Shown here in pieces: positions 36,100 to 46,389 of a DNA stretch of 64,000 bases. The DNA lies in NCBI GenBank assembly GCA_002238965.1, contig MPNJ01000001.1, forward strand, positions 124,001 through 188,000, in the 5' to 3' direction. This stretch comes from Nitrospinae bacterium bin107. Lineage in GTDB: Bacteria; UBA8248. Under the pieces are notes generated by a model. That model saw only the letters and a list, made by a program, of their open reading frames with translations. It searched no databases and was not told where the DNA came from. How positions within the stretch are numbered: position 1 is the stretch's first letter; each line of letters begins with the position of its first letter. The position numbers were made by a program, and so were the translations under genes.

Positions 36100-37614
36100 C
36101 TACTCCTCCGCGCCGTGCCCGTTGAGATCAGCAGGGTCGGTCACTTCCAAGCTACCCTTAAGCCCGAACAAGCGTTGCATCTTCTTCCTGAAGGCCGGTG
36201 TGAAGAGCCTTTCGGCATAATATCGACCCGCCACCCTCTTGTTCACCTGCGCCAGAGTGGGATAGACGTGAACCGTATCCACCACCTCCTTGATGTGCAT
36301 CTTCTTGCGGACGGCCAGCACAAACTCGTGTAATATCTCGCCCGCTGCTGGCCCGACCAGATCAGTTCCCACGAGCCTTCCCTTCTCGTCGCACACGACC
36401 TTGCAGATTCCTTCCGTTTCCCCGTCCAGGACGGCGCGGTCCACACGGCTCATCGGAAAGCGAAACACTTGGATGCGATTCGCCCCCAATGCCGCTTCGG
36501 CGTCAGCTTCGCTCATGCCGACATGCGCCGCCTCGGGCGTGGTATAGATCGTCCACGGCACGGCGTCATAGTTCGTTTTCTTCTTCAGAAACGGGAGCGA
36601 GATGCCAAATGGCGCGCTGAAGAGCATGTTCCTGAGCGCCACACCCGCCTCATACTCCGCCATGTGGGTAAAGAGATACTGGCCCCTGATATCGCCTGCG
36701 GCGAAGATGCGCGGATTCGCGGTTTGAAGATATTCATCCGTCTCCACACCGTGCGGGGTGTAATTCACGCCAGCCTTCTCCAGGTCCATCCCACCCACGT
36801 TGGGCGATCGCCCAGTCGCAATGAGCAGTTGATCGCACACCCACTCCCTTTTTCCAGACGGCGTATCGGCCTCTAAAAAAATCTCTTCCCCTCGTTTCTC
36901 GACTCTCTGCGTGTTCACGTTGAAATGGAGTTTGAGACCGGATTCCGTCAAGGAATCGGCCAGAATTTCGGCCATTTCCTTATCGAGTCTCGGCAAGAGC
37001 TTCGGCGCGCTTTGCAGCACTTCCACCTCTGCGCCGAGTTGCTGAAACGCCTGTGACAATTCCAGTCCTATCGGTCCCGCTCCCAGCACCACCAGGCGTC
37101 TCGGCAACTCTTCCAAATCGAAAACGGTCTCGTTCGTGAGATAGGGCACGCTATCGAGACCGGCGATGGGCGGCACGAAGGGAGAACTGCCCATGGACAG
37201 CAAAAACCGCTTGGCCCGCAGCGTCCTGTCCCCAATCTGAAACGTATCGGGACCGGTGAAAGCGCCATCTCCGAAGATCACCTCGATTCCCATGCCCTCG
37301 AAACGCTCTGGCGCGTCGTGCTCGCCGATGTGGGCCTGGGCCGCCTTCATCCGCTTCATGACACGGGGAAAATCGACCCGCACGTCGCTCACGTCAATCC
37401 CGAACTCGGGCATCGAGCGCGCCTGCGCCGCGAGCCGCGCCGAGCGGATAAGACCTTTCGAAGGCACGCACCCATAGTTCAGGCAATCTCCGCCGAGCTT
37501 CGCCTTCTCCACGAGCGCGGCTTTGGCCCCCAGTTGGGCAGCCCCAACGGACGCCACCAGACCGCCGACTCCCCCCCCGATGGATACCAAATCAAACACC
37601 GACTCATTTTGCAT
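36100..37614 (-). CDS. Dihydrolipoamide dehydrogenase / mercuric reductase-like flavoprotein
   Basis: This 504-residue FAD/NAD(P) disulfide oxidoreductase has an N-terminal FAD motif (SIGGGVGGLVASVGAAQLGA), redox cysteines Cys44 and Cys49 (GGDCLNYGCVPSK), a second dinucleotide motif (VVLGAGPIGLELSQAF) and ATGRSPN. In true lipoamide dehydrogenase the C-terminal HxHPTLxE motif supplies the catalytic His-Glu pair. Here it reads VHVYPTLAQ, so His is Tyr451 and Glu is Gln456. That variant is seen in relatives of MerA and membrane-associated reductases. It sits convergently beside aceEF, but identity as the complex E3 is doubtful. The protein has about 40 extra C-terminal residues. Confidence 0.85.
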   Translation of the reverse strand: MQNESVFDLVSIGGGVGGLVASVGAAQLGAKAALVEKAKLGGDCLNYGCVPSKGLIRSARLAAQARSMPEFGIDVSDVRVDFPRVMKRMKAAQAHIGEHDAPERFEGMGIEVIFGDGAFTGPDTFQIGDRTLRAKRFLLSMGSSPFVPPIAGLDSVPYLTNETVFDLEELPRRLVVLGAGPIGLELSQAFQQLGAEVEVLQSAPKLLPRLDKEMAEILADSLTESGLKLHFNVNTQRVEKRGEEIFLEADTPSGKREWVCDQLLIATGRSPNVGGMDLEKAGVNYTPHGVETDEYLQTANPRIFAAGDIRGQYLFTHMAEYEAGVALRNMLFSAPFGISLPFLKKKTNYDAVPWTIYTTPEAAHVGMSEADAEAALGANRIQVFRFPMSRVDRAVLDGETEGICKVVCDEKGRLVGTDLVGPAAGEILHEFVLAVRKKMHIKEVVDTVHVYPTLAQVNKRVAGRYYAERLFTPAFRKKMQRLFGLKGSLEVTDPADLNGHGAEE

Positions 37615-37675: not shown

Positions 37676-39202
37676 TCAAGATGTTACTTTATCCAAGGGT
37701 TTCAGCCCGAACAAGAAAAACAAGAACGCGATAAACAAATAACCGACAGCTATGCCGGGCGCCGCCCCCCAGCCGAAAAAACTAACGACGCCGCCGGGCG
37801 TGATTCTCCAAGCGTGAATTATCCCGAACCAGCTCAATACCGCGCCGGCCAACGCCCATCCTCCCGCCTGTTTCGGTTCCTTATCTACCAGTTTTGCTAC
37901 GATGGCCGTAAGGATGATGGACGTAAATAGAAATCCGCGCTCCAAGGTAACCATCCCCACCAGGTGAAAACCCACTTTGGCGAACGCATCCTGTCCCACT
38001 TTCCACAAGGTTGTGCCCGCTCCCCTGAGGGAGGATTCCACCATCAGCAAACCCCAGGCGGCGATGGCGGGTATCAAACCGATAGCCACGGCCGGCCCGT
38101 GGTTCTTCGGCACAGCCTGAAATGCCTGGGTGAGCATCATCACCCCGATCCAGAGCATGAGGGCGAAGAGCGCCTCGCCCGGAATGATTTTCGAAAGCGC
38201 CGCTATCGAACCGGTAAAGCAGAGAACCGTCATCACCGTCCCGTTCAAGGCGCTGTAACCCGCGCGCGCCCCAACCCTCTTCCAGGCCGGATGTCCGATA
38301 TATATCGTCGTGGGAAAACAACTCCCAAGACACGCCGCGAGAAGCGAACCCGCGCCGTTCACCGCGAGGGAACTACCCGTGTCGTAACTGTCACCGGCCG
38401 CAGCTGCGCTTTCCAGGCACATCAGGCTGCCCACCAGCGTCATCAGACCCATGGGGATGGAAACCGCGAGGTAGTCCCAGGCCAGCGGACCGAAAAGAGC
38501 GTCAGACAAAGGCCCGAGGGCGGAGGATGGAAGCGCCAGCCCTACAGGCGCCGGGATACCGACCGGAAACCCCTTGATGACGGCGGAAAGAACCACTCCC
38601 ACCGCCACCGCTACGAGGCCACCCGGCACGCCGAAGGGAAATCTGAATCCGCCGAAATAATGGACCAGGATGATTCCCAGGGGCACCATGGAGAGGAGCG
38701 GGTTCTCCCAGATTCTGAATGCGAAATCCATCGCAATGAAAGTGAGCGCGATGCCTCCAAGTGCGGAGAGCAGAGCGGCCCTTGGCGCGACCCGCCTGAT
38801 CCACCCGCCCACCAGCGCACCGACTGTCTCGATCACCCCGCTCACGAAACAGGCCGCCAGACCTGCCTGCCAGGCCGCTTCGGCGCTTCCGGTCTTGAGC
38901 TTGACGGGCAGCATGACGAAAAAGATGAACGCAAACAGCGTCACCGTGTTGAGGCCGTAAGGCATGGCTGTCACATCGTCTCGGCCTTCGCGTACGGCCA
39001 GACGCCGCGCCTGCCAGGTATAGAAAAGGTTGCCCCCCAGAAGACTCAGGGCCGCAGCGGGCAATACGCGCCCGAATATTAGTGACTCGGGAAAACCCAG
39101 CAACCCTTTCAAGAAACTCACGATGAGAAGAAGGTTAATGAGGTTGTCCATCCACAGACCGAAAAAGCCGTCGATATCACCCTTCACGAACCATCCAGGC
39201 AT
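37676..39202 (-). CDS. NCS2-like (xanthine/uracil family) permease
   Basis: This 508-residue inner-membrane protein has 12-14 hydrophobic segments. Features such as MPYGLNTVTLFAFIF, the half-helix motifs ALLSALGGIALTFIAMDF and CLESAAAAGDSYDTGSS, and ACLGSCFPTTIYIGHPAW point to the NCS2/SulP superfamily fold. Substrate is unknown; nucleobase or anion are both possible. ATG 39202 is preferred (AGGGA nine nucleotides upstream); an open frame extends 16 codons further. It is transcribed away from the glutaredoxin-DinB gene at 39375. It lies 61 nt upstream of the E3-like gene on the same strand's downstream side. Confidence 0.68.
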   Translation of the reverse strand: MPGWFVKGDIDGFFGLWMDNLINLLLIVSFLKGLLGFPESLIFGRVLPAAALSLLGGNLFYTWQARRLAVREGRDDVTAMPYGLNTVTLFAFIFFVMLPVKLKTGSAEAAWQAGLAACFVSGVIETVGALVGGWIRRVAPRAALLSALGGIALTFIAMDFAFRIWENPLLSMVPLGIILVHYFGGFRFPFGVPGGLVAVAVGVVLSAVIKGFPVGIPAPVGLALPSSALGPLSDALFGPLAWDYLAVSIPMGLMTLVGSLMCLESAAAAGDSYDTGSSLAVNGAGSLLAACLGSCFPTTIYIGHPAWKRVGARAGYSALNGTVMTVLCFTGSIAALSKIIPGEALFALMLWIGVMMLTQAFQAVPKNHGPAVAIGLIPAIAAWGLLMVESSLRGAGTTLWKVGQDAFAKVGFHLVGMVTLERGFLFTSIILTAIVAKLVDKEPKQAGGWALAGAVLSWFGIIHAWRITPGGVVSFFGWGAAPGIAVGYLFIAFLFFLFGLKPLDKVTS

Positions 39203-39301
39203 TGGAGTTCCCTTGTTCAAGGTCAACACTTCAAACCGAGCACACCGCAACTCACGGGATAGTAAAACACGCGGGCTTGTTCGCCAAAGCGCACGAGGCA
39301 G

Positions 39302-39330: not shown

Positions 39331-39374
39331 TCGCCCATAAAAAATCACTTTCGCGCTCATCGGGGAGAAAATCG

Positions 39375-40127
39375 ATGGAAGCTGTCAAAGTCTACACGCG
39401 GCACGGCTGATACACCTGCGCCCTTACGAGAGAGTTTCTCTCGTCCAGCGGTCTGGAAGTCGTCAACAGAGACTGCACGAACGACGCCGAAGCCCAGGCG
39501 GAACTCAAGGCGCTGGGTATCAAGGCCCTGCCCGTCGCCGTGCGCGGAGAAAATGTGGTAGTGGGCTACGACGTAGATGCCCTTCGCGAGGCCTTTGACA
39601 TCGAACAGGAAGGCGCCGGTCCCCTCTCGTCTGAAAAAATGCTCCACTATTTCGAGATGGTGTTCGACGCCTTTCGCCGCGTGATCCGCCAGATTCCATA
39701 CGAAACGCTCGACTGGGTAACCCCCGGCAGACCCCGCACGCTTCGCCAGCTCACATGGCACAGCTTCGAGCGTCCGGACCTCGTGATGCAGACTCACGCA
39801 TCAGGAGAGTACACCGAAGATATGGTGCGGCGGTATGAAACGATGGCGAACGATTATGATACCAACGAAGATATCTGCGCCTATGGAGATGAAATTCAGG
39901 CAAAGCTCACCGACTTTCTGACAGACGGCGGCGAGGCGCTCGCCAAAAAAGTGTCGAGCTATATGGGACCCATCACCGTACATGAGTTGATGATTCTCTC
40001 GCTCGGGCACGCCTTCCAGCACCTACGGCAAACCTACCACTATTTCGAGATGCTGGAGATAGTGCCGGATAACCCGCTGCAACCCGAAGACTACGAAGAA
40101 GTGCCTGTGCCAAAGGATCTCTTTTAG
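39375..40127 (+). CDS. Glutaredoxin-like/DinB fusion protein, probable selenoprotein (in-frame TGA at codon 12)
   Basis: Reading from ATG 39375 (GGGGAG seven nucleotides upstream) to TAG 40125-40127 gives 250 codons with one in-frame TGA at 39408-39410. The N-terminus reads MEAVKVYTRHG-[TGA]-YTC, then ALTREFLSSSGLEV and KALGIKALPVAV. This is a glutaredoxin fold in which the TGA falls exactly on the first redox cysteine of C-x-x-C, so Sec12-x-x-Cys15 is predicted. Residues about 85-250 are a DinB-like four-helix domain with candidate metal ligands His129, His212 and His216 (LTWHSFERPD, LGHAFQHLRQ). A hairpin of bacterial SECIS geometry follows the TGA. Codons after the TGA keep the frame, motif and length, which argues against a pseudogene. 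The selABCD genes are not in the window. Without Sec insertion, only the part from about 39540 would be called. Confidence 0.82.
39408..39444 (+). promoter_or_regulatory. Candidate bacterial SECIS element following the TGA codon
   Basis: Downstream of the TGA (39408-39410), ACGAGAGA (39426-39433) and TCTCTCGT (39437-39444) form a perfect 8-bp stem with loop GTT (39434-39436). The loop begins 23 nt after the TGA and its first base is G. Published bacterial SECIS models require a stem-loop within the coding region, a UGA-to-loop distance of about 16-37 nt, and a G among the first loop bases. The element meets all three. Confidence 0.72.
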
Positions 40128-40157: not shown

Positions 40158-41435
40158 ATGCCGTCTAAAGAAACGTTTCCCCTCCGCGCGAACCGCGACC
40201 GCATGAGGCGTGAGTTCAACGCCCAGGCGAAGATCGGCAAATACGGAAAAACGGGCCTCGACCGCGTGGCCTTCACGCCGGTCTACAACGAGGTGCGAGA
40301 CCTCGTCGAGGGCTGGATGAAGAACGCGGGCCTTGAGACGCGGGTCGACGCCGTGGGGAATCTGTATGGACGAAAAGAGGGCCGCGTGCGCGGACTTCCC
40401 GCCGTGATGGCCGGCTCGCATCTCGATTCCCAGAGCCCGGGCGGACGCTTCGACGGCCCCGCGGGCGTGCTCACTGCTCTCGAAGCGTTCCGGCGCATCG
40501 ACGAGACGGGACTCGCCCACGATCACCCCATCGAGGTGATGGCCTTCGTGGGAGAGGAATCCGCATGCGGGATGACGGTGTTCGGCAGCAGCGTCGCCAC
40601 GGGTGTCGTGGGCGTGAAAGATTTGAAGAACACGGAGCATCCGCCGACCGGCAAATCGCTGTATGAAGCCATCGAGGCGGTGGGCGGCAATCCTGCGCGC
40701 GTACGCTCGTGCCGGATTAAAGACGGCTCACTCAAGGCCTTTCTGGAGCTTCACATCGAACAGGGGCCGGTGCTCGAATCGGCCGAGATACCCATCGGCA
40801 TCGTGGACAGGGTGGTGGGATACACGAGGGGCGAGGTTCACTTCACTGGCGTCACGGCGCACTCGGGCGGACAGCCCATGCCCTACCGAAAGGACGCCGG
40901 AATCGCGGCGGCGGACTTCATGGTGCGCATGGAGAACTTCGTGAACCGCGCGCCCGAGTCTCAGCGCGTAACAATCACCTTCGGGGAGATGGAAGCGCTC
41001 CCAGGATGGGTGTCCATCGTGCCCGGAGGGGCGAGGCTTTCTTTCGATCTCAGAAGCAGAAGCCAGACGGTGATGGAGCGCACCCTCGGGCGGATGGAAA
41101 AAACGCTTGCCGCCATCGAGAAGGAGCGGGGCGTCGAAGGCCGCCTCTCCGACGTGAAGAAGCTGGCCGTCTGCCCCACCTCCAACAACATTCAAAAGGC
41201 GCTCCGGCGCGCTTCCAAAGAAACGGGACACGCCGCGCTCACGCTATCGAGCGGCGGGGTGCACGACGCCTGCCGCATGGCGGCGATATGCCCGATCGGA
41301 ATGGTGTTCATTCCCTCGGTGGGCGGGCTCTCGCACACGCCCGAGGAGTTCACGCACTTTGACGACATGGTGAAGGGCGCAGAAATCCTCGCCTCCTCCA
41401 TTGCGCATCTCGCCAACGAGAAGGTGAAGGCGTAA
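40158..41435 (+). CDS. Zn-dependent amidohydrolase of the hydantoinase/carbamoylase (M20) family
   Basis: This 425-residue cytoplasmic enzyme resembles N-carbamoyl-L-amino acid hydrolase, allantoate amidohydrolase and beta-ureidopropionase. Motifs are AGSHLDSQSPGGRFDG (metal ligands His88 and Asp99), AFVGEESACGMTVFG, LHIEQGPVLE (His ligand) and the C-terminal SSGGVHDACRMA and GLSHTPEEF. The ATG at 40158 is chosen because AAGGAGG ends seven nucleotides before it; a TTG three nucleotides upstream is less well spaced. It lies 30 nt after the glutaredoxin-DinB gene on the same strand and is likely co-transcribed with it. A permease of NCS2 type is nearby, which could hint at purine or pyrimidine degradation. 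Confidence 0.88.
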   Translation: MPSKETFPLRANRDRMRREFNAQAKIGKYGKTGLDRVAFTPVYNEVRDLVEGWMKNAGLETRVDAVGNLYGRKEGRVRGLPAVMAGSHLDSQSPGGRFDGPAGVLTALEAFRRIDETGLAHDHPIEVMAFVGEESACGMTVFGSSVATGVVGVKDLKNTEHPPTGKSLYEAIEAVGGNPARVRSCRIKDGSLKAFLELHIEQGPVLESAEIPIGIVDRVVGYTRGEVHFTGVTAHSGGQPMPYRKDAGIAAADFMVRMENFVNRAPESQRVTITFGEMEALPGWVSIVPGGARLSFDLRSRSQTVMERTLGRMEKTLAAIEKERGVEGRLSDVKKLAVCPTSNNIQKALRRASKETGHAALTLSSGGVHDACRMAAICPIGMVFIPSVGGLSHTPEEFTHFDDMVKGAEILASSIAHLANEKVKA

Positions 41436-42284: not shown

Positions 42285-42491
42285 TCTTACAACAGGCTTT
42301 ATATTGAATCTTTATAAGCGCTTTTCGCCCTGATATCCCTTTATGATTGTCAAGTTATTGTAAGCTAAGACGTATTATGATAAATTTCGCTACCTTAAAA
42401 TAAGTAAGTATGAATGTATTGTCGCAGTTACGTTTGCGGCGCAGCGTCTCGAAACCGAAACTCTATAGTTGAAATCGAGAGGGAGAAAAAA

Positions 42492-43751
42492 ATGGGCAGG
42501 ATAATCAGGCACGTCATTCTCGGATTTGCGCTGCTCCTCGCGGTGAGCATCGCCTTCACGCCCGCGGCGCATGCGGCCAAGGAAGTGAAGATCGGATTCA
42601 GCATGGCGCTGACCGGACCGCTCGGCCCCGCAGGCAAGGCGGCGCTGCTGGCCATGCAGATCTGGCGCGACGACGTGAACGCCAAGGGCGGACTGCTCGG
42701 CCGCAAGGTCAAGCTGGTCTATTACGATGATCAGACAAAACCCGCCAACGTTCCGGGCATCTACGCCAAGCTGCTCGACGTGGACAAGGTGGACTTCATC
42801 GTATCGGGCTACGGAACGAACCTCATCGTTCCCGCGCTGCCCATCGCGATGGAGCGCGGCATGGTGTTCATGGGTCTTTTCGGTCTGGATGCGAACGCGA
42901 AGTTCAAATACAACAACTACTTCCAGATCATGCCGGCCGGCCCCGACCCGATCGTGGACTGGTCGCGCGGCTTCTTCGAACTCGCCAAGAAGCAAAAGCC
43001 CCAGCCCAAGACGATCGCGCTGCTCTCGGCTGATTCCGAGTTCGCGCGAAACGCCGTCGCCGGCGCCCGCCGGAACGCGAAGAAATACGGATTGAAGGTC
43101 GTCTACGACCAACGCTACCCCTTCCCCGGCACGTCCGACTTCACGCCGATTCTGCGCGCGGTCAAGGCCGCCAAGCCGGATCTCTTCTACGTGGGCTCCT
43201 ACCCGGGCGGTTCTGTGGGCATCGTGAAGGCCGCGCATGAGATCGGCCTCGAACCCAAACTCTTCGGCGGCGGCATGGTGGGTCTTCAGTACACCGCCAT
43301 CCAGATGAACCTCGGCAAACTGCTGAACGGCATCACGAACTACTGGTTCTGGGCGCCGGAGAAGACCCTGAAGTTCCCCGGCATCGAAGCCTTCCTGGCG
43401 AAATACCAGAAAGAAGCGCCCAAGCAGAAACTAGACCCGCTGGGCTACTACCTGCCGCCGTTCGCCTACGCCTACGTGCAGTTGCTCGGAAATGCGATCG
43501 AGGCCACCAAGAGCTTCGACCAGGCGAAGGTCGGCGCCTACATTCGCAACAACACCCATTCCACCGTGGTCGGAAACGTGAAGTTCGGCAAGAACGGCGA
43601 GTGGGCGACCTCCCGGACGTTCCAGGTGCAGTTGCAAAACATCAAGAGCAACAAGATGAGCGAGTTCAGCAAACCCGGCAAGATGATCGTGCTGTATCCC
43701 GAGGACTTCAAGTCCGGAAACCTCATCTATCCATACGCGAAAGGCAAGTAA
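42492..43751 (+). CDS. Branched-chain amino acid type ABC transporter, substrate-binding protein (operon 1)
   Basis: This 419-residue periplasmic protein has a Sec signal peptide (GRIIRHVILGFALLLAVS, cleavage near AAHAAKE). The Leu/Ile/Val-binding (Peripla_BP_6) fold follows, starting EVKIGFSMALTGPLGPAGKAA, with KGGLLGRKVKLVYYDDQTKP. GGGAG lies seven nucleotides before ATG 42492. Liv-type systems also carry amides, urea and aromatic acids, so the ligand is open. It heads a five-gene operon with two permeases and two ATPases. Confidence 0.92.
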   Translation: MGRIIRHVILGFALLLAVSIAFTPAAHAAKEVKIGFSMALTGPLGPAGKAALLAMQIWRDDVNAKGGLLGRKVKLVYYDDQTKPANVPGIYAKLLDVDKVDFIVSGYGTNLIVPALPIAMERGMVFMGLFGLDANAKFKYNNYFQIMPAGPDPIVDWSRGFFELAKKQKPQPKTIALLSADSEFARNAVAGARRNAKKYGLKVVYDQRYPFPGTSDFTPILRAVKAAKPDLFYVGSYPGGSVGIVKAAHEIGLEPKLFGGGMVGLQYTAIQMNLGKLLNGITNYWFWAPEKTLKFPGIEAFLAKYQKEAPKQKLDPLGYYLPPFAYAYVQLLGNAIEATKSFDQAKVGAYIRNNTHSTVVGNVKFGKNGEWATSRTFQVQLQNIKSNKMSEFSKPGKMIVLYPEDFKSGNLIYPYAKGK

Positions 43752-43773
43752 CGAACCGGACATAAAACTGCGA

Positions 43774-43799
43774 TCGGGGGGAGACATCTCCCCCCGGTC
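43774..43799 (+). terminator. Intercistronic stem-loop after the first Liv binding-protein gene
   Basis: GGGGGGAG (43777-43784) and CTCCCCCC (43789-43796) form an 8-bp GC stem with loop ACAT, extended by three more pairs including one G-U. There is no T-tract, so it is more likely an mRNA-stabilising or attenuating hairpin than a full terminator. Such hairpins let binding proteins be made in excess of permeases. Confidence 0.5.
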
Positions 43800-43828
43800 C
43801 GCGTCCGGCTCGTCGCAGGAGCGCATCC

Positions 43829-44701
43829 ATGCTCAGCATCGAATTCTTGTTGAACGCACTCGTCGCGGGCCTCCTGCTGGGAGGCTTCTACGCCGCGTTA
43901 AGCGCCGGTCTTTCGCTCTCATTCGGTTTGCTGGACGTCGTGAACATCGCCCATCCGGCGTTCATTCTCTTCGGTTCCTACCTGACTTTCTACGCAAACG
44001 AGCACTTCGGGTTCGACCCGGTGCTCGCGGGCCTTATCTTCGCGGTTCCCGCCTATTTCGTGGGCGTCGCGGTCTACAAAATCTACTACAACAGCTTTGA
44101 AAAAACGGGGGCGGAATCCCTGCGCGGACTGGTGTTTTTCTTCGGACTCTTTTTCCTCATCGAGGTCATACTCATCATCACCTTCGGGGTGGACTACCGC
44201 CTCGTCCGCGCGTTCTACATCGGCAAGTCCACGTCTATCGGTCCGGTGGGAATCGCCTATCGGCTGTTCGTGCCCTTCCTCGTGGGGGGGATACTCTCCA
44301 CCGTCCTGTACCTGTTTCTCACAAAAACATTTTTCGGACGCGCCATCATGGGCGTTGCGCAGGACAGCCTCGCCGTCCAACTCATGGGGGTCGACCCGAT
44401 TCGCATCAAGACGGTCGCCTTCGGCATCGGCATCGCCACCGCCGTGATCGCGGGCTCTTTGCTCATCATCATCGGCCCGGTCGAGCCGACCATCGGACGC
44501 GAGTACATCGGCCGCGTGTTCGCGGTCACCGTGCTCGGCGGGCTGGGCAGTATGACGGGCACGCTCGTGGGCGCGCTCATCCTGGGCGTCGCGGAGAGCT
44601 TCACCTCTTCGTTCTTCGGCCCCTCGTGGGCGCTGGCCGTCTCGTTCGGCATTCTGCTCATCTGCCTGGCGGTCCGGCCGTCCGGCCTCTTCGGGAGGTA
44701 G
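43829..44701 (+). CDS. LivH-type ABC transporter permease (operon 1)
   Basis: This 290-residue inner-membrane permease has about eight hydrophobic segments. It shows the LivH hallmarks (GLSLSFGLLDVVNIAHPAF near residues 27-45 and GLGSMTGTLVGALILGVAES near the C-terminus). It pairs with the LivM-type protein encoded four nucleotides downstream. CAGGAG lies before the ATG. Its role is to form half of the translocation channel of a periplasmic-binding-protein-dependent importer. Confidence 0.92.
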   Translation: MLSIEFLLNALVAGLLLGGFYAALSAGLSLSFGLLDVVNIAHPAFILFGSYLTFYANEHFGFDPVLAGLIFAVPAYFVGVAVYKIYYNSFEKTGAESLRGLVFFFGLFFLIEVILIITFGVDYRLVRAFYIGKSTSIGPVGIAYRLFVPFLVGGILSTVLYLFLTKTFFGRAIMGVAQDSLAVQLMGVDPIRIKTVAFGIGIATAVIAGSLLIIIGPVEPTIGREYIGRVFAVTVLGGLGSMTGTLVGALILGVAESFTSSFFGPSWALAVSFGILLICLAVRPSGLFGR

Positions 44702-44704
44702 CCC

Positions 44705-45664
44705 TTGAGTAACGAAAAGAGGCTCTTCCTGATCGTGGCCGCCGTACTCGTAGTCGGGGCATTCCTCATCACGACCCAGATGGAGAACCGCTTCTACTAC
44801 AAGGCGGCCTACGTCGTGTTGCAGTACGTCGTCCTGGCCACGGCCTGGAACATCCTGGGCGGCTACACCGGATATGTGAATTTCGGCACGGCGGCGTTCT
44901 TCGCCATGGGCGCCTACACCGCCGTCGCGCTCATCAAGACCTGGAAGCCGCCCCTTTACGTGCTGCTCATTTCGGGCGGCATCGTCTCGGGCCTCCTGGG
45001 ACTCGGCATCGGCTACCTGACCTTGAGGCTCAGAGGCGTGTTCTTCTCCATCGCGACCCTCGCGCTGGCCGTCGTGCTCCAGATGGTCGTCTCGAACTGG
45101 GACTATGTGGGCGGCGGCGCGGGCACGGCCATCCTGAAACCCAGGAGCGTGCCGCTGTTCTCGAACTACGACGAGTTCCTCTTCTTCGTCATGGCGGCGC
45201 TCGCGGTGGTCGCCGTGGCCGTCGCCTGGCTCATCGAGAAATCCTGGGTCGGGCGGGGAATGGCCGCCATCCGCGACAACGAGGAAGCGGCCGAGTGCAT
45301 GGGCGTGCCCATTCTCAAAATCAAGCTGTTCGCCACCACGGTGAGCGGCGCGCTGATGGGAATCGCGGGCGCGCCGTTTTCCTATTTCGTCGTCTACATC
45401 GAACCCACATCGGCCTTTCACCTCGACTACGCGGTGAACAGCCTCGCCATGCCCATGATCGGCGGCACCACCTCATGGCTCGGCCCGCTGGTCGGCGCGG
45501 TTCTGGTCGGTACTGCCCAGCAGATAGCCACAGTCACGCTCTCCGCCGAGATGAACCTGCTCATCGTGGGCAGCCTGCTCGTTGGCTTCGTGGTGTTCGC
45601 ACCCGACGGCCTCGTGGGCCTGTTCGGCAAGATTCGCGCACGACTCGTGGGCAAGGAGGCGTGA
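44705..45664 (+). CDS. LivM-type ABC transporter permease (operon 1)
   Basis: This 319-residue permease has the LivM motifs AWNILGGYTGYVNFGTAAFFAMGAY and the cytoplasmic coupling-loop sequence AAIRDNEEAAECMGVPILKIKL. It starts at TTG 44705, supported by GGGAGG six nucleotides upstream that overlaps the livH stop region. Its stop overlaps the start of the following ATPase gene by one nucleotide (TGATG), so translation is coupled. Confidence 0.92.
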   Translation: MSNEKRLFLIVAAVLVVGAFLITTQMENRFYYKAAYVVLQYVVLATAWNILGGYTGYVNFGTAAFFAMGAYTAVALIKTWKPPLYVLLISGGIVSGLLGLGIGYLTLRLRGVFFSIATLALAVVLQMVVSNWDYVGGGAGTAILKPRSVPLFSNYDEFLFFVMAALAVVAVAVAWLIEKSWVGRGMAAIRDNEEAAECMGVPILKIKLFATTVSGALMGIAGAPFSYFVVYIEPTSAFHLDYAVNSLAMPMIGGTTSWLGPLVGAVLVGTAQQIATVTLSAEMNLLIVGSLLVGFVVFAPDGLVGLFGKIRARLVGKEA

Positions 45665-46389
45665 TGAGCGAAAACCTCCTCGACGTACACGGCGTCACCA
45701 AGCGCTTCGGCGGATTCAGCGCACTCACCAAAGTGGATCTGCACGTGAAGGAAAACGAGCGCTTCGGCCTAATCGGCCCCAACGGCTCGGGCAAGACGAC
45801 AATGATCAACTGCATCTCGGGCGCTCTCAACAACGACGAGGGGAACATCGTCTTCGCAGGCCGGGACATCACCACCATGCCCGCCTACAAGCGAACCCGC
45901 CTGGGCATCGCCCGCAGTTTTCAGATTCCCAAGCCGTTCGTCAGCATGACGGTTCTCGAGAACCTGTGCATTCCTCTCGAATACGCCGCCCACCAGCACT
46001 CCCACGGGGCGGAACTTCAGGGCGAGGCCATGGAAATACTCGAGATCATGAGCATGGCGGACAAGGCCGACGTGCGAACCGGGGGACTCACCCAGATCGA
46101 ACTGCGCAAGCTCGAACTCGCCCGCGCCATGGCGGCCAAGCCGAGGCTCCTCATATCGGACGAGGCCATGGCCGGCCTCTCCAACACCGAGGTGGACGAC
46201 ATTCTCGAAATCCTAGTCCGTCTGAACGAGGAAGGCCTCACGGTCATCATGATCGAGCACATCATGCGGGCGGTCATGAACTTCTCGGAGCGCATCGTCG
46301 TCCTCGACGCCGGGGAAAAGATAGCCGAGGGGACGCCCGATGAGATCGTCAACAACAAGGACGTGGAAAGGGCCTACCTTGGCGCATAG
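45664..46389 (+). CDS. LivG-type ABC transporter ATP-binding protein (operon 1)
   Basis: This 241-residue ATPase has Walker A GPNGSGKT and Walker B RLLISDEAMAGL. The signature segment reads GLTQIELRKLELARA in place of the classical LSGGQ, as is usual for one LivG subgroup. The C-terminal IVNNKDVERAYLGA is typical of LivG. The ATG overlaps the livM stop. It couples ATP hydrolysis to the LivM/LivH channel on the cytoplasmic face. Confidence 0.93.
   Translation: MSENLLDVHGVTKRFGGFSALTKVDLHVKENERFGLIGPNGSGKTTMINCISGALNNDEGNIVFAGRDITTMPAYKRTRLGIARSFQIPKPFVSMTVLENLCIPLEYAAHQHSHGAELQGEAMEILEIMSMADKADVRTGGLTQIELRKLELARAMAAKPRLLISDEAMAGLSNTEVDDILEILVRLNEEGLTVIMIEHIMRAVMNFSERIVVLDAGEKIAEGTPDEIVNNKDVERAYLGA

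Follow-up and report, generated by a model that had tools for sequence, protein, structure and literature searches.

Glutaredoxins that carry selenocysteine (Sec) and thiol transferases of the DinB superfamily are the closest described systems to the gene analysed here, a predicted Sec-containing glutaredoxin-DinB fusion at positions 39,375-40,127 (forward strand) of a 64,000-nucleotide stretch of the Nitrospinae bacterium bin107 genome (GenBank assembly GCA_002238965.1, contig MPNJ01000001.1, positions 124,001 to 188,000), referred to as the window below. The verified Sec-glutaredoxin is said to come from work on a selenoprotein glutaredoxin for the selenoprotein MsrA, which a 2026 review gives as its source. 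In Table 1 of this review, which holds 119 prokaryotic selenoprotein families and subfamilies and treats several fusions as entries of their own, Sec-glutaredoxin (PF00462, UxxC) is an experimentally verified entry (PMC13188914). Ten Sec-glutaredoxin sequences from the Sargasso Sea are also described in the accessible part of an earlier paper (PMC1088965). On the DinB side, the accessible part of another study states that most DinB proteins hold a metal through three histidines (PMC10950700).

The window gene joins the two parts in one frame, and such a Sec-containing combination was not met in the sources covered. The review lists the UxxC glutaredoxin in its Table 1 and has no DinB entry there, nor does DinB occur anywhere in its text (PMC13188914). 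DinB is also absent from the accessible part of the Sargasso Sea paper (PMC1088965), and the accessible parts of the deep-Sep paper and of the 2016 survey mention neither DinB nor glutaredoxin. A literature search, which could not cover the bulk of subscription journals, preprints, supplementary files or annotation present only in databases, gave no description of a Sec glutaredoxin-DinB protein and, within the same scope, no paper on a selenoprotein in the Nitrospin lineage. No NCBIfam model matched the window protein above its cut-off; the UXX-star models all scored below their curated cut-offs (NF041212, 38.4 against 66; NF041211, 22.9 against 100; NF047338, 22.3 against 97; NF041114, 16 against 72). 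Because it is absent from the 119-family table, NCBIfam and the searched literature, we call the Sec glutaredoxin-DinB protein a new architecture, while Sec-glutaredoxins and cysteine-containing glutaredoxin-DinB fusions are already known. The first-pass annotation, made from the sequence of the window, had regarded the combination as an undescribed selenoprotein; this stands for the Sec form, but the fusion itself is not new, as Cys forms are already annotated on plasmids.

The gene and its in-frame TGA

On the computational evidence given below, the open frame at 39,375-40,127 is almost certainly a Sec-containing glutaredoxin-DinB fusion, and a gene that an apparent stop codon seems to truncate is very probably translated in full, giving a redox enzyme that contains selenium. 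Its features, with the evidence for each in brackets, are as follows.

39362..39367, + strand: GGGGAG, resembling a ribosome-binding site, 7 nucleotides 5' of the ATG (sequence)
39375..40127, + strand: predicted selenoprotein gene, glutaredoxin-DinB fusion of 250 amino acids with Sec at residue 12 (frame, Pfam, homologues, AlphaFold)
39375..39608, + strand: glutaredoxin domain, residues 1-78 (Pfam, profiles, fold match)
39408..39410, + strand: predicted UGA Sec codon, residue 12, first position of U-x-x-C in the context YTRHG-U-YTC (conserved TGA; Cys aligned in plasmid homologues)
39417..39419, + strand: Cys15 codon, second (resolving) residue of U-x-x-C (58 of 58 sequences)
39426..39444, + strand: predicted bacterial selenocysteine insertion sequence (SECIS) hairpin, ACGAGAGA-GUU-UCUCUCGU, whose loop becomes AGUUU when the uppermost A-U pair opens (folding, synonymous null, published model)
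39618..40082, + strand: DinB / S-transferase-like four-helix domain, residues 82-236 (Pfam, fold match)
39759..39761, + strand: His129, predicted metal ligand 1 (58 of 58 sequences)
40008..40010, + strand: His212, predicted metal ligand 2 (58 of 58 sequences)
40020..40022, + strand: His216, predicted metal ligand 3 (58 of 58 sequences)

Reading the frame confirmed the first-pass observation of a single TGA, which is codon 12 and takes the place of the first glutaredoxin cysteine; the rest of the 250-residue frame is open. TGA is the stop of 14 of the 39 open reading frames (ORFs) of at least 200 amino acids in the window (mechanically picked, non-overlapping); outside this gene, then, TGA serves as a normal stop, which is evidence against a changed genetic code.

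Conservation of the TGA among homologues

The gene was found in 17 of the 18 genomes of the window's phylum, one of which (G017; G, C and L numbers are our handles for genomes, contigs and loci) carries two copies, giving 18 full-length genes; their products are 48-95% identical to the window protein. All 18 contain exactly one TGA, aligned with codon 12. A nineteenth match in the phylum (L025) meets a contig end before the glutaredoxin part, is uninformative on the site, and was excluded from the alignments and from the SECIS null. When 386 genomes, among them those of the own phylum, were searched, distant copies with one TGA also came up in G102, G112, G250 and G379, together with a single-domain match in G152. 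The TGA form is present in all five genomes of the phylum of G112, and 48 of 95 genomes in the class of G102 have a whole-protein match containing one TGA; the best 30 of these 48 matches were read, and U stood at the aligned site in every one, as G-U-[ST]-S-C. All 53 Sec-type genes that were read, in three groups, thus keep the in-frame UGA, and Cys is aligned with it in the five other genes. Across the 58 aligned proteins the site is Sec in 53, Cys in 5 and nothing else, which agrees with the TGA or Cys that the first-pass annotation had proposed to look for in close relatives. Since the TGA recurs in many separate assemblies, a sequencing error, the miscalled TGA that the first-pass annotation had allowed for, is very unlikely.

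Two side results belong here. Genomes G441, G443, G444 and G445 have, besides a one-TGA glutaredoxin-DinB match, a second, separate match that contains no stop, covers the DinB half alone and begins at model position 76-81. Viral contigs searched with the fusion alignment gave 24 pattern matches and no relatives.

Predicted SECIS hairpin

The hairpin starts 15 nucleotides past the TGA and has a folding energy of -10.1 kcal/mol (z -2.9; 2 of 200 shuffles were equally good). The published bacterial SECIS model describes a stem of 4-16 base pairs, a loop of 3-9 nucleotides with G in the first two loop positions, a distance of 16-37 nucleotides from the UGA and a minimum free energy of -7.5 or lower (PMC13188914), and the window hairpin agrees with it, having an 8-base-pair stem, the loop GUU (or AGUUU) and a distance of 23 (or 22) nucleotides. 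Because the stem overlaps conserved protein, we chose a comparison with synonymous codons, in which random synonymous codons were drawn for each gene from its own usage and the stem pairs were counted. In the own phylum, a mean of 6.78 of 7 pairs was formed against 3.74 expected, with P<=0.05 in 16 of 18 genes and values of 0.055 and 0.109 in the remaining two. The class of G102 showed 6.47 pairs against 4.49 expected (null beaten in 15 of 30 genes), and the phylum of G112 5.20 against 3.67 (2 of 5 genes). Among the 53 Sec-type genes, 26 have G-C and 12 have A-U at pair 22-32; at pair 21-33, 44 have A-U, 4 have C-G and 5 have no standard pair. These changes are compensatory. In the five Cys genes, between 2 and 6 of the 8 pairs of the SECIS-type stem are formed, and in no case does the number exceed the null.

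Selenocysteine machinery

All four genes whose presence the first-pass annotation had proposed to check, selA, selB, selC and selD, are in the same genome. The scores are 576 bits for selA (cut-off 267.9), 385.7 bits for selB (cut-off 242.25) and 333.9 bits for selD (cut-off 125), and the tRNA-Sec scores 75.9 (cut-off 47) and is called tRNA-SeC with anticodon tca (UCA) by ARAGORN. The conserved TGA, this machinery and the SECIS-like hairpin together support the earlier proposal of a Sec-containing glutaredoxin-DinB fusion.

Two observations were made at these loci. The selD gene (G000:C32, locus L039, 1501-2463) itself has an in-frame TGA, in GG-U-GSK, and is a candidate selenoprotein gene; we take this position to be the usual Sec place of SelD. 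Between selA and selB (G000:C14, locus L053, 2966-3769) lies an ORF of 267 amino acids that looks like an alpha/beta-hydrolase, by eye only.

Domains, fold and active-site residues

The Pfam Glutaredoxin model matches residues 4-56 with E 4.9e-8 and 33.5 bits, above its cut-off of 22.9, and the protein thus shows both marks of the glutaredoxin family, the UxxC motif and an above-threshold PF00462 match. An AlphaFold model was built with nine aligned sequences (mean pLDDT, the predicted local distance difference test score, 88.9). In this model, residues 3-75 resemble glutaredoxins (7c12, Z 12.9, 73 residues, root-mean-square deviation (rmsd) 1.3) and residues 81-236 resemble DinB/YfiT structures (6iz2, Z 16.1, 144 residues, rmsd 2.4), and Foldseek concurs for both parts. 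Sequence searches of the PDB gave little for the second domain: the DinB part alone had three matches, all PhoB, and the fusion alignment had one weak DinB-like chain (E 0.49).

Residues C/U12, C15, H129, H212 and H216 are invariant in 58 of 58 aligned proteins. The invariance of residues 12 and 15 is partly due to locating the distant genes by the G-U-x-x-C motif, a step that dropped no fetched locus (5 of 5 and 30 of 30 found). By analogy with other DinB proteins, H129, H212 and H216 are taken as putative metal ligands, and the three candidate metal-binding histidines of the first-pass annotation could be placed at these positions.

Cysteine-type homologues and other Sec-glutaredoxins

Public plasmids hold 14 matching records, 13 of which cover at least 80% of the query. 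In the five plasmid proteins read (one each from Variovorax, Roseomonas and Rhizobium and two from Caballeronia), the site is Cys in all, as GCSSC. The Roseomonas gene adjoins an isochorismatase-family protein, an AtzG-like protein and an amidase, and the Variovorax, Caballeronia and Rhizobium genes have neighbours different from these. A midpoint-rooted tree was built from 43 proteins, including 15 of the 30 rows from the class of G102. It places the Cys proteins together in a single group, next to the Sec proteins of G102 and G112, and the own-phylum Sec proteins lie across the midpoint from them together with the long-branched L096 (G386). The tree does not separate a single Sec origin, followed by a switch to Cys, from two Sec origins, because the root is a midpoint, long branches meet and the Cys rows are one side of a branch.

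Short stand-alone glutaredoxins with a TGA in T-U-x-x-C (for example TTUPPC and PTUPHC) were also observed (L019, L020, L021, L026, L028 and L029), and they are probably a separate Sec-glutaredoxin family. Three of them, L026 (G015), L028 (G009) and L029 (G016), lie in own-phylum genomes that carry the glutaredoxin-DinB gene as well. Locus L074 (G152:C176), from another lineage, encodes a single-domain glutaredoxin with the TGA in QSG-U-VFC.

Weighing the selenoprotein reading

Several results weigh against the selenoprotein reading or narrow its basis. The Pfam DinB_2 match (residues 93-219, E 4e-5) has 24.5 bits and is slightly below its cut-off of 24.8. Among the 35 carrier genomes tested, selA is above the cut-off in 29 and absent or below it in six (G004, G014, G015, G016, G386 and G462); four of the six are less than 85% complete, and G016 is 98% complete with 8% contamination. 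Conversely, G007 (95% complete) has selA and no copy of the gene, the one exception among the 18 own-phylum genomes. For the class of G102, of which 57 of 95 genomes were covered, selA is above the cut-off in 12 of 13 carriers and in 38 of the 44 genomes that lack a full-length match; it does not tell carriers from the others, so co-occurrence is no evidence in that class. For 3 of 5 genes from the phylum of G112 and 15 of 30 from the class of G102, pairing of the hairpin in the same register does not exceed the null; other stems may serve in these distant genes. A standard pair is missing at 22-32 in 15 of 53 genes, and when the folding energy of the whole folded segment is used instead of pair counts, the synonymous control gives P<=0.05 in just 4 of 18 own-phylum genes (0.026 to 0.59). 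The class of G102 also holds 18 of 48 matches outside those read. The homologues are related, so conservation and pairing counts are not independent, and the pairing counts support but do not prove the structure. Separately, L073 (G379:C6, phylum of G112) seems frame-shifted in the middle of its DinB part, by sequencing error or decay.

Sec insertion at codon 12 is so far a computational prediction. One alternative is a real stop, left in a recently broken glutaredoxin-DinB gene or made by an assembly error, with just the 195-residue DinB part produced from an internal GTG at 39540. Translation table 11 does end the frame at codon 12, and an ORF of 195 amino acids does begin at that GTG. A broken gene, however, would vary or decay, whereas the TGA is kept in 53 of 53 Sec-type genes of three groups with protein conserved on both sides of it; the hairpin fits the SECIS model, and the Sec machinery in the genome is complete. 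We consider a real stop highly improbable. An in-frame TGA within a conserved frame could also be read as Trp, Cys or Gly through a changed code or a suppressor tRNA, but 14 of the 39 long ORFs of the window end in TGA, the five TGA-less homologues read have Cys at the site, and a tRNA-Sec with anticodon tca is present, which leaves this reading scarcely credible.

Thiol cofactor and proposed mechanism

The first-pass annotation had suggested a bacillithiol- or glutathione-linked oxidoreductase. The bacillithiol synthase BshC was found in 0 of 18 own-phylum genomes, in a search that did not include BshA, BshB or the mycothiol genes and whose control was positive in B. subtilis, Thermus composti and Deinobacterium chartae. 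GshB was above the cut-off in 0 of 18, with weak matches in 15 of 18, and GshA and GshF were not searched. With BshC and above-cut-off GshB both at 0 of 18, the proposed link to these thiols is without support.

We propose that SelB and tRNA-Sec would read the UGA of codon 12 as Sec, directed by the hairpin just downstream, and that the DinB domain would hold a divalent metal through His129, His212 and His216. A thiol or thiol-conjugated substrate might then bind at this metal site, and the Sec12 selenolate could attack a disulfide, mixed disulfide or S-conjugate formed or held there. Cys15 would resolve the resulting selenenyl-sulfide, and a cellular disulfide reductase would reset the glutaredoxin domain. 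Reduction by the UxxC domain of a disulfide or S-conjugate that arises at the DinB metal site is a tentative idea, to which we give somewhat less than an even chance; the mechanism, including metal binding and activity, is drawn from family analogy, which counts against it. Taken as a whole, a Sec glutaredoxin-DinB selenoprotein with this kind of mechanism is the best explanation we have, and we think it quite probable.

Two other functions can be considered for the same protein. The Sec selenolate might itself be the nucleophile, or the immediate recycling centre, at the DinB metal site and so replace the free low-molecular-weight thiol of BstA and the mycothiol transferases, making the protein a self-contained thiol transferase. 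Both halves in the same order and all five active-site residues are kept in 58 aligned full-length proteins, neither expected thiol cofactor was found (BshC 0 of 18; GshB over the cut-off 0 of 18), and DinB relatives use metal-bound thiols according to the accessible parts of two papers (PMC10950700, PMC5815605). But the proximity of Sec12 to the His triad is assumed, G441, G443, G444 and G445 have matches to the DinB half alone, and other thiols and other thiol genes are still possible, so that we hold this function to be unlikely. Alternatively, the protein may be a plain thiol-disulfide reductase of the Sec-glutaredoxin or NrdH type, whose DinB part serves to dock or sense a single partner. 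The glutaredoxin profiles that score best, without reaching their cut-offs, are those of the YruB and NrdH types; in the case of NrdH, resetting is done by thioredoxin reductase and not by glutathione. Against a docking or sensing role, the His triad is kept in 58 of 58 proteins, which suggests a working metal site, and we regard the plain reductase as rather doubtful.

Gene neighbourhood

The neighbours of the gene in the window are as follows.

36100..37614, - strand: protein of the disulfide-oxidoreductase family containing flavin adenine dinucleotide (FAD), candidate electron donor (neighbourhood comparison)
37676..39250, - strand: divergent membrane protein (neighbourhood comparison; no match in Pfam or NCBIfam)
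40158..41435, + strand: M20 hydantoinase/carbamoylase-family amidase, downstream after a 30-nucleotide gap, possibly co-transcribed and not part of the selenoprotein (TIGR01879, 347 bits)

Five genera of the family have the gene. The M20 amidase lies 3' of it in three of them (g1, g4 and g6), and the membrane protein is on the other side in four (g1, g3, g5 and g6), G017 of g3 being an exception; in some g3 genomes an aldo/keto-reductase-like ORF separates the two. Two genera (g1 and g3) retain the order of FAD oxidoreductase, membrane protein and selenoprotein gene, and the oxidoreductase could be the reductase partner and electron donor of the selenoprotein. The 36100-37614 product is near MerA and lipoamide dehydrogenase profiles (best of PRK06370 type), below the cut-offs of the best 25 of 40 models. 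A reading of the membrane protein as an NCS2 permease, made by eye, was dropped, as neither Pfam nor NCBIfam gave a match. Distant Sec forms have other neighbours, and the gene context gives no firm function. Farther downstream, 3' of the M20 amidase, a set of branched-chain-amino-acid-type ABC (ATP-binding cassette) transporter genes (42414-46389) is kept in same-genus loci; its substrate-binding protein was assigned by NCBIfam and its other members by eye.

Significance and comparison with known systems

The gene would extend the set of Sec families by one whose domain architecture is clear, which has Cys counterparts among culturable Proteobacteria and which carries a SECIS-like hairpin. 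Genes of this kind occur in dozens of genomes, spread over three separate groups of bacteria. Standard annotation is expected to miss such genes or to start them at the DinB part. The family connects selenium with the large and poorly understood DinB superfamily, and the Sec/Cys pair allows the value of Sec to be tested. If the self-contained transferase were true, this would be a widespread selenoenzyme family doing alone what bacillithiol and mycothiol transferases do with a free thiol cofactor.

With the Sec-glutaredoxins the window protein shares the UxxC glutaredoxin fold, and the closest solved domain, cGrx1 (7c10 and 7c12), is 38-41% identical to its own; we take cGrx1 to be Grx1 of Clostridium oremlandii, from the Sec-glutaredoxin work. 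The solved cGrx1 chains, however, are one domain of 84 residues, whereas the window protein adds a DinB metal domain. The UXX-star (seleno)proteins likewise have Sec in a glutaredoxin-like domain and show weak profile similarity, but their model names do not include DinB. BstA and MST, of the DinB/YfiT S-transferase-like group, have the DinB four-helix fold and a metal site with His ligands, and the fold matches to 8f5v (Z 13.5) and 5wk0 (Z 10.9, a value within reach of helical bundles through common arrangement) point the same way; these are single-domain proteins that use a free thiol cofactor, whereas the window protein has a fused redox domain, and BshC was not found in the 18 own-phylum genomes. 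Joining a glutaredoxin to the enzyme that it serves is also known from the Grx-NrdB ribonucleotide reductase, as described in the accessible part of its paper (PMC6187632), and from the fusion of glutaredoxin with ferredoxin disulfide reductase (7pwe), but both have another partner enzyme, and Sec is not mentioned in the accessible descriptions. The nearest counterparts are the Cys glutaredoxin-DinB fusions on proteobacterial plasmids, annotated as 'DinB family protein' or 'glutaredoxin domain-containing protein', which have the same two domains in the same order, the same length, and Cys15, H129, H212 and H216, and differ from the window protein in having Cys (GCSSC) in place of Sec and only 20-28% identity to it.
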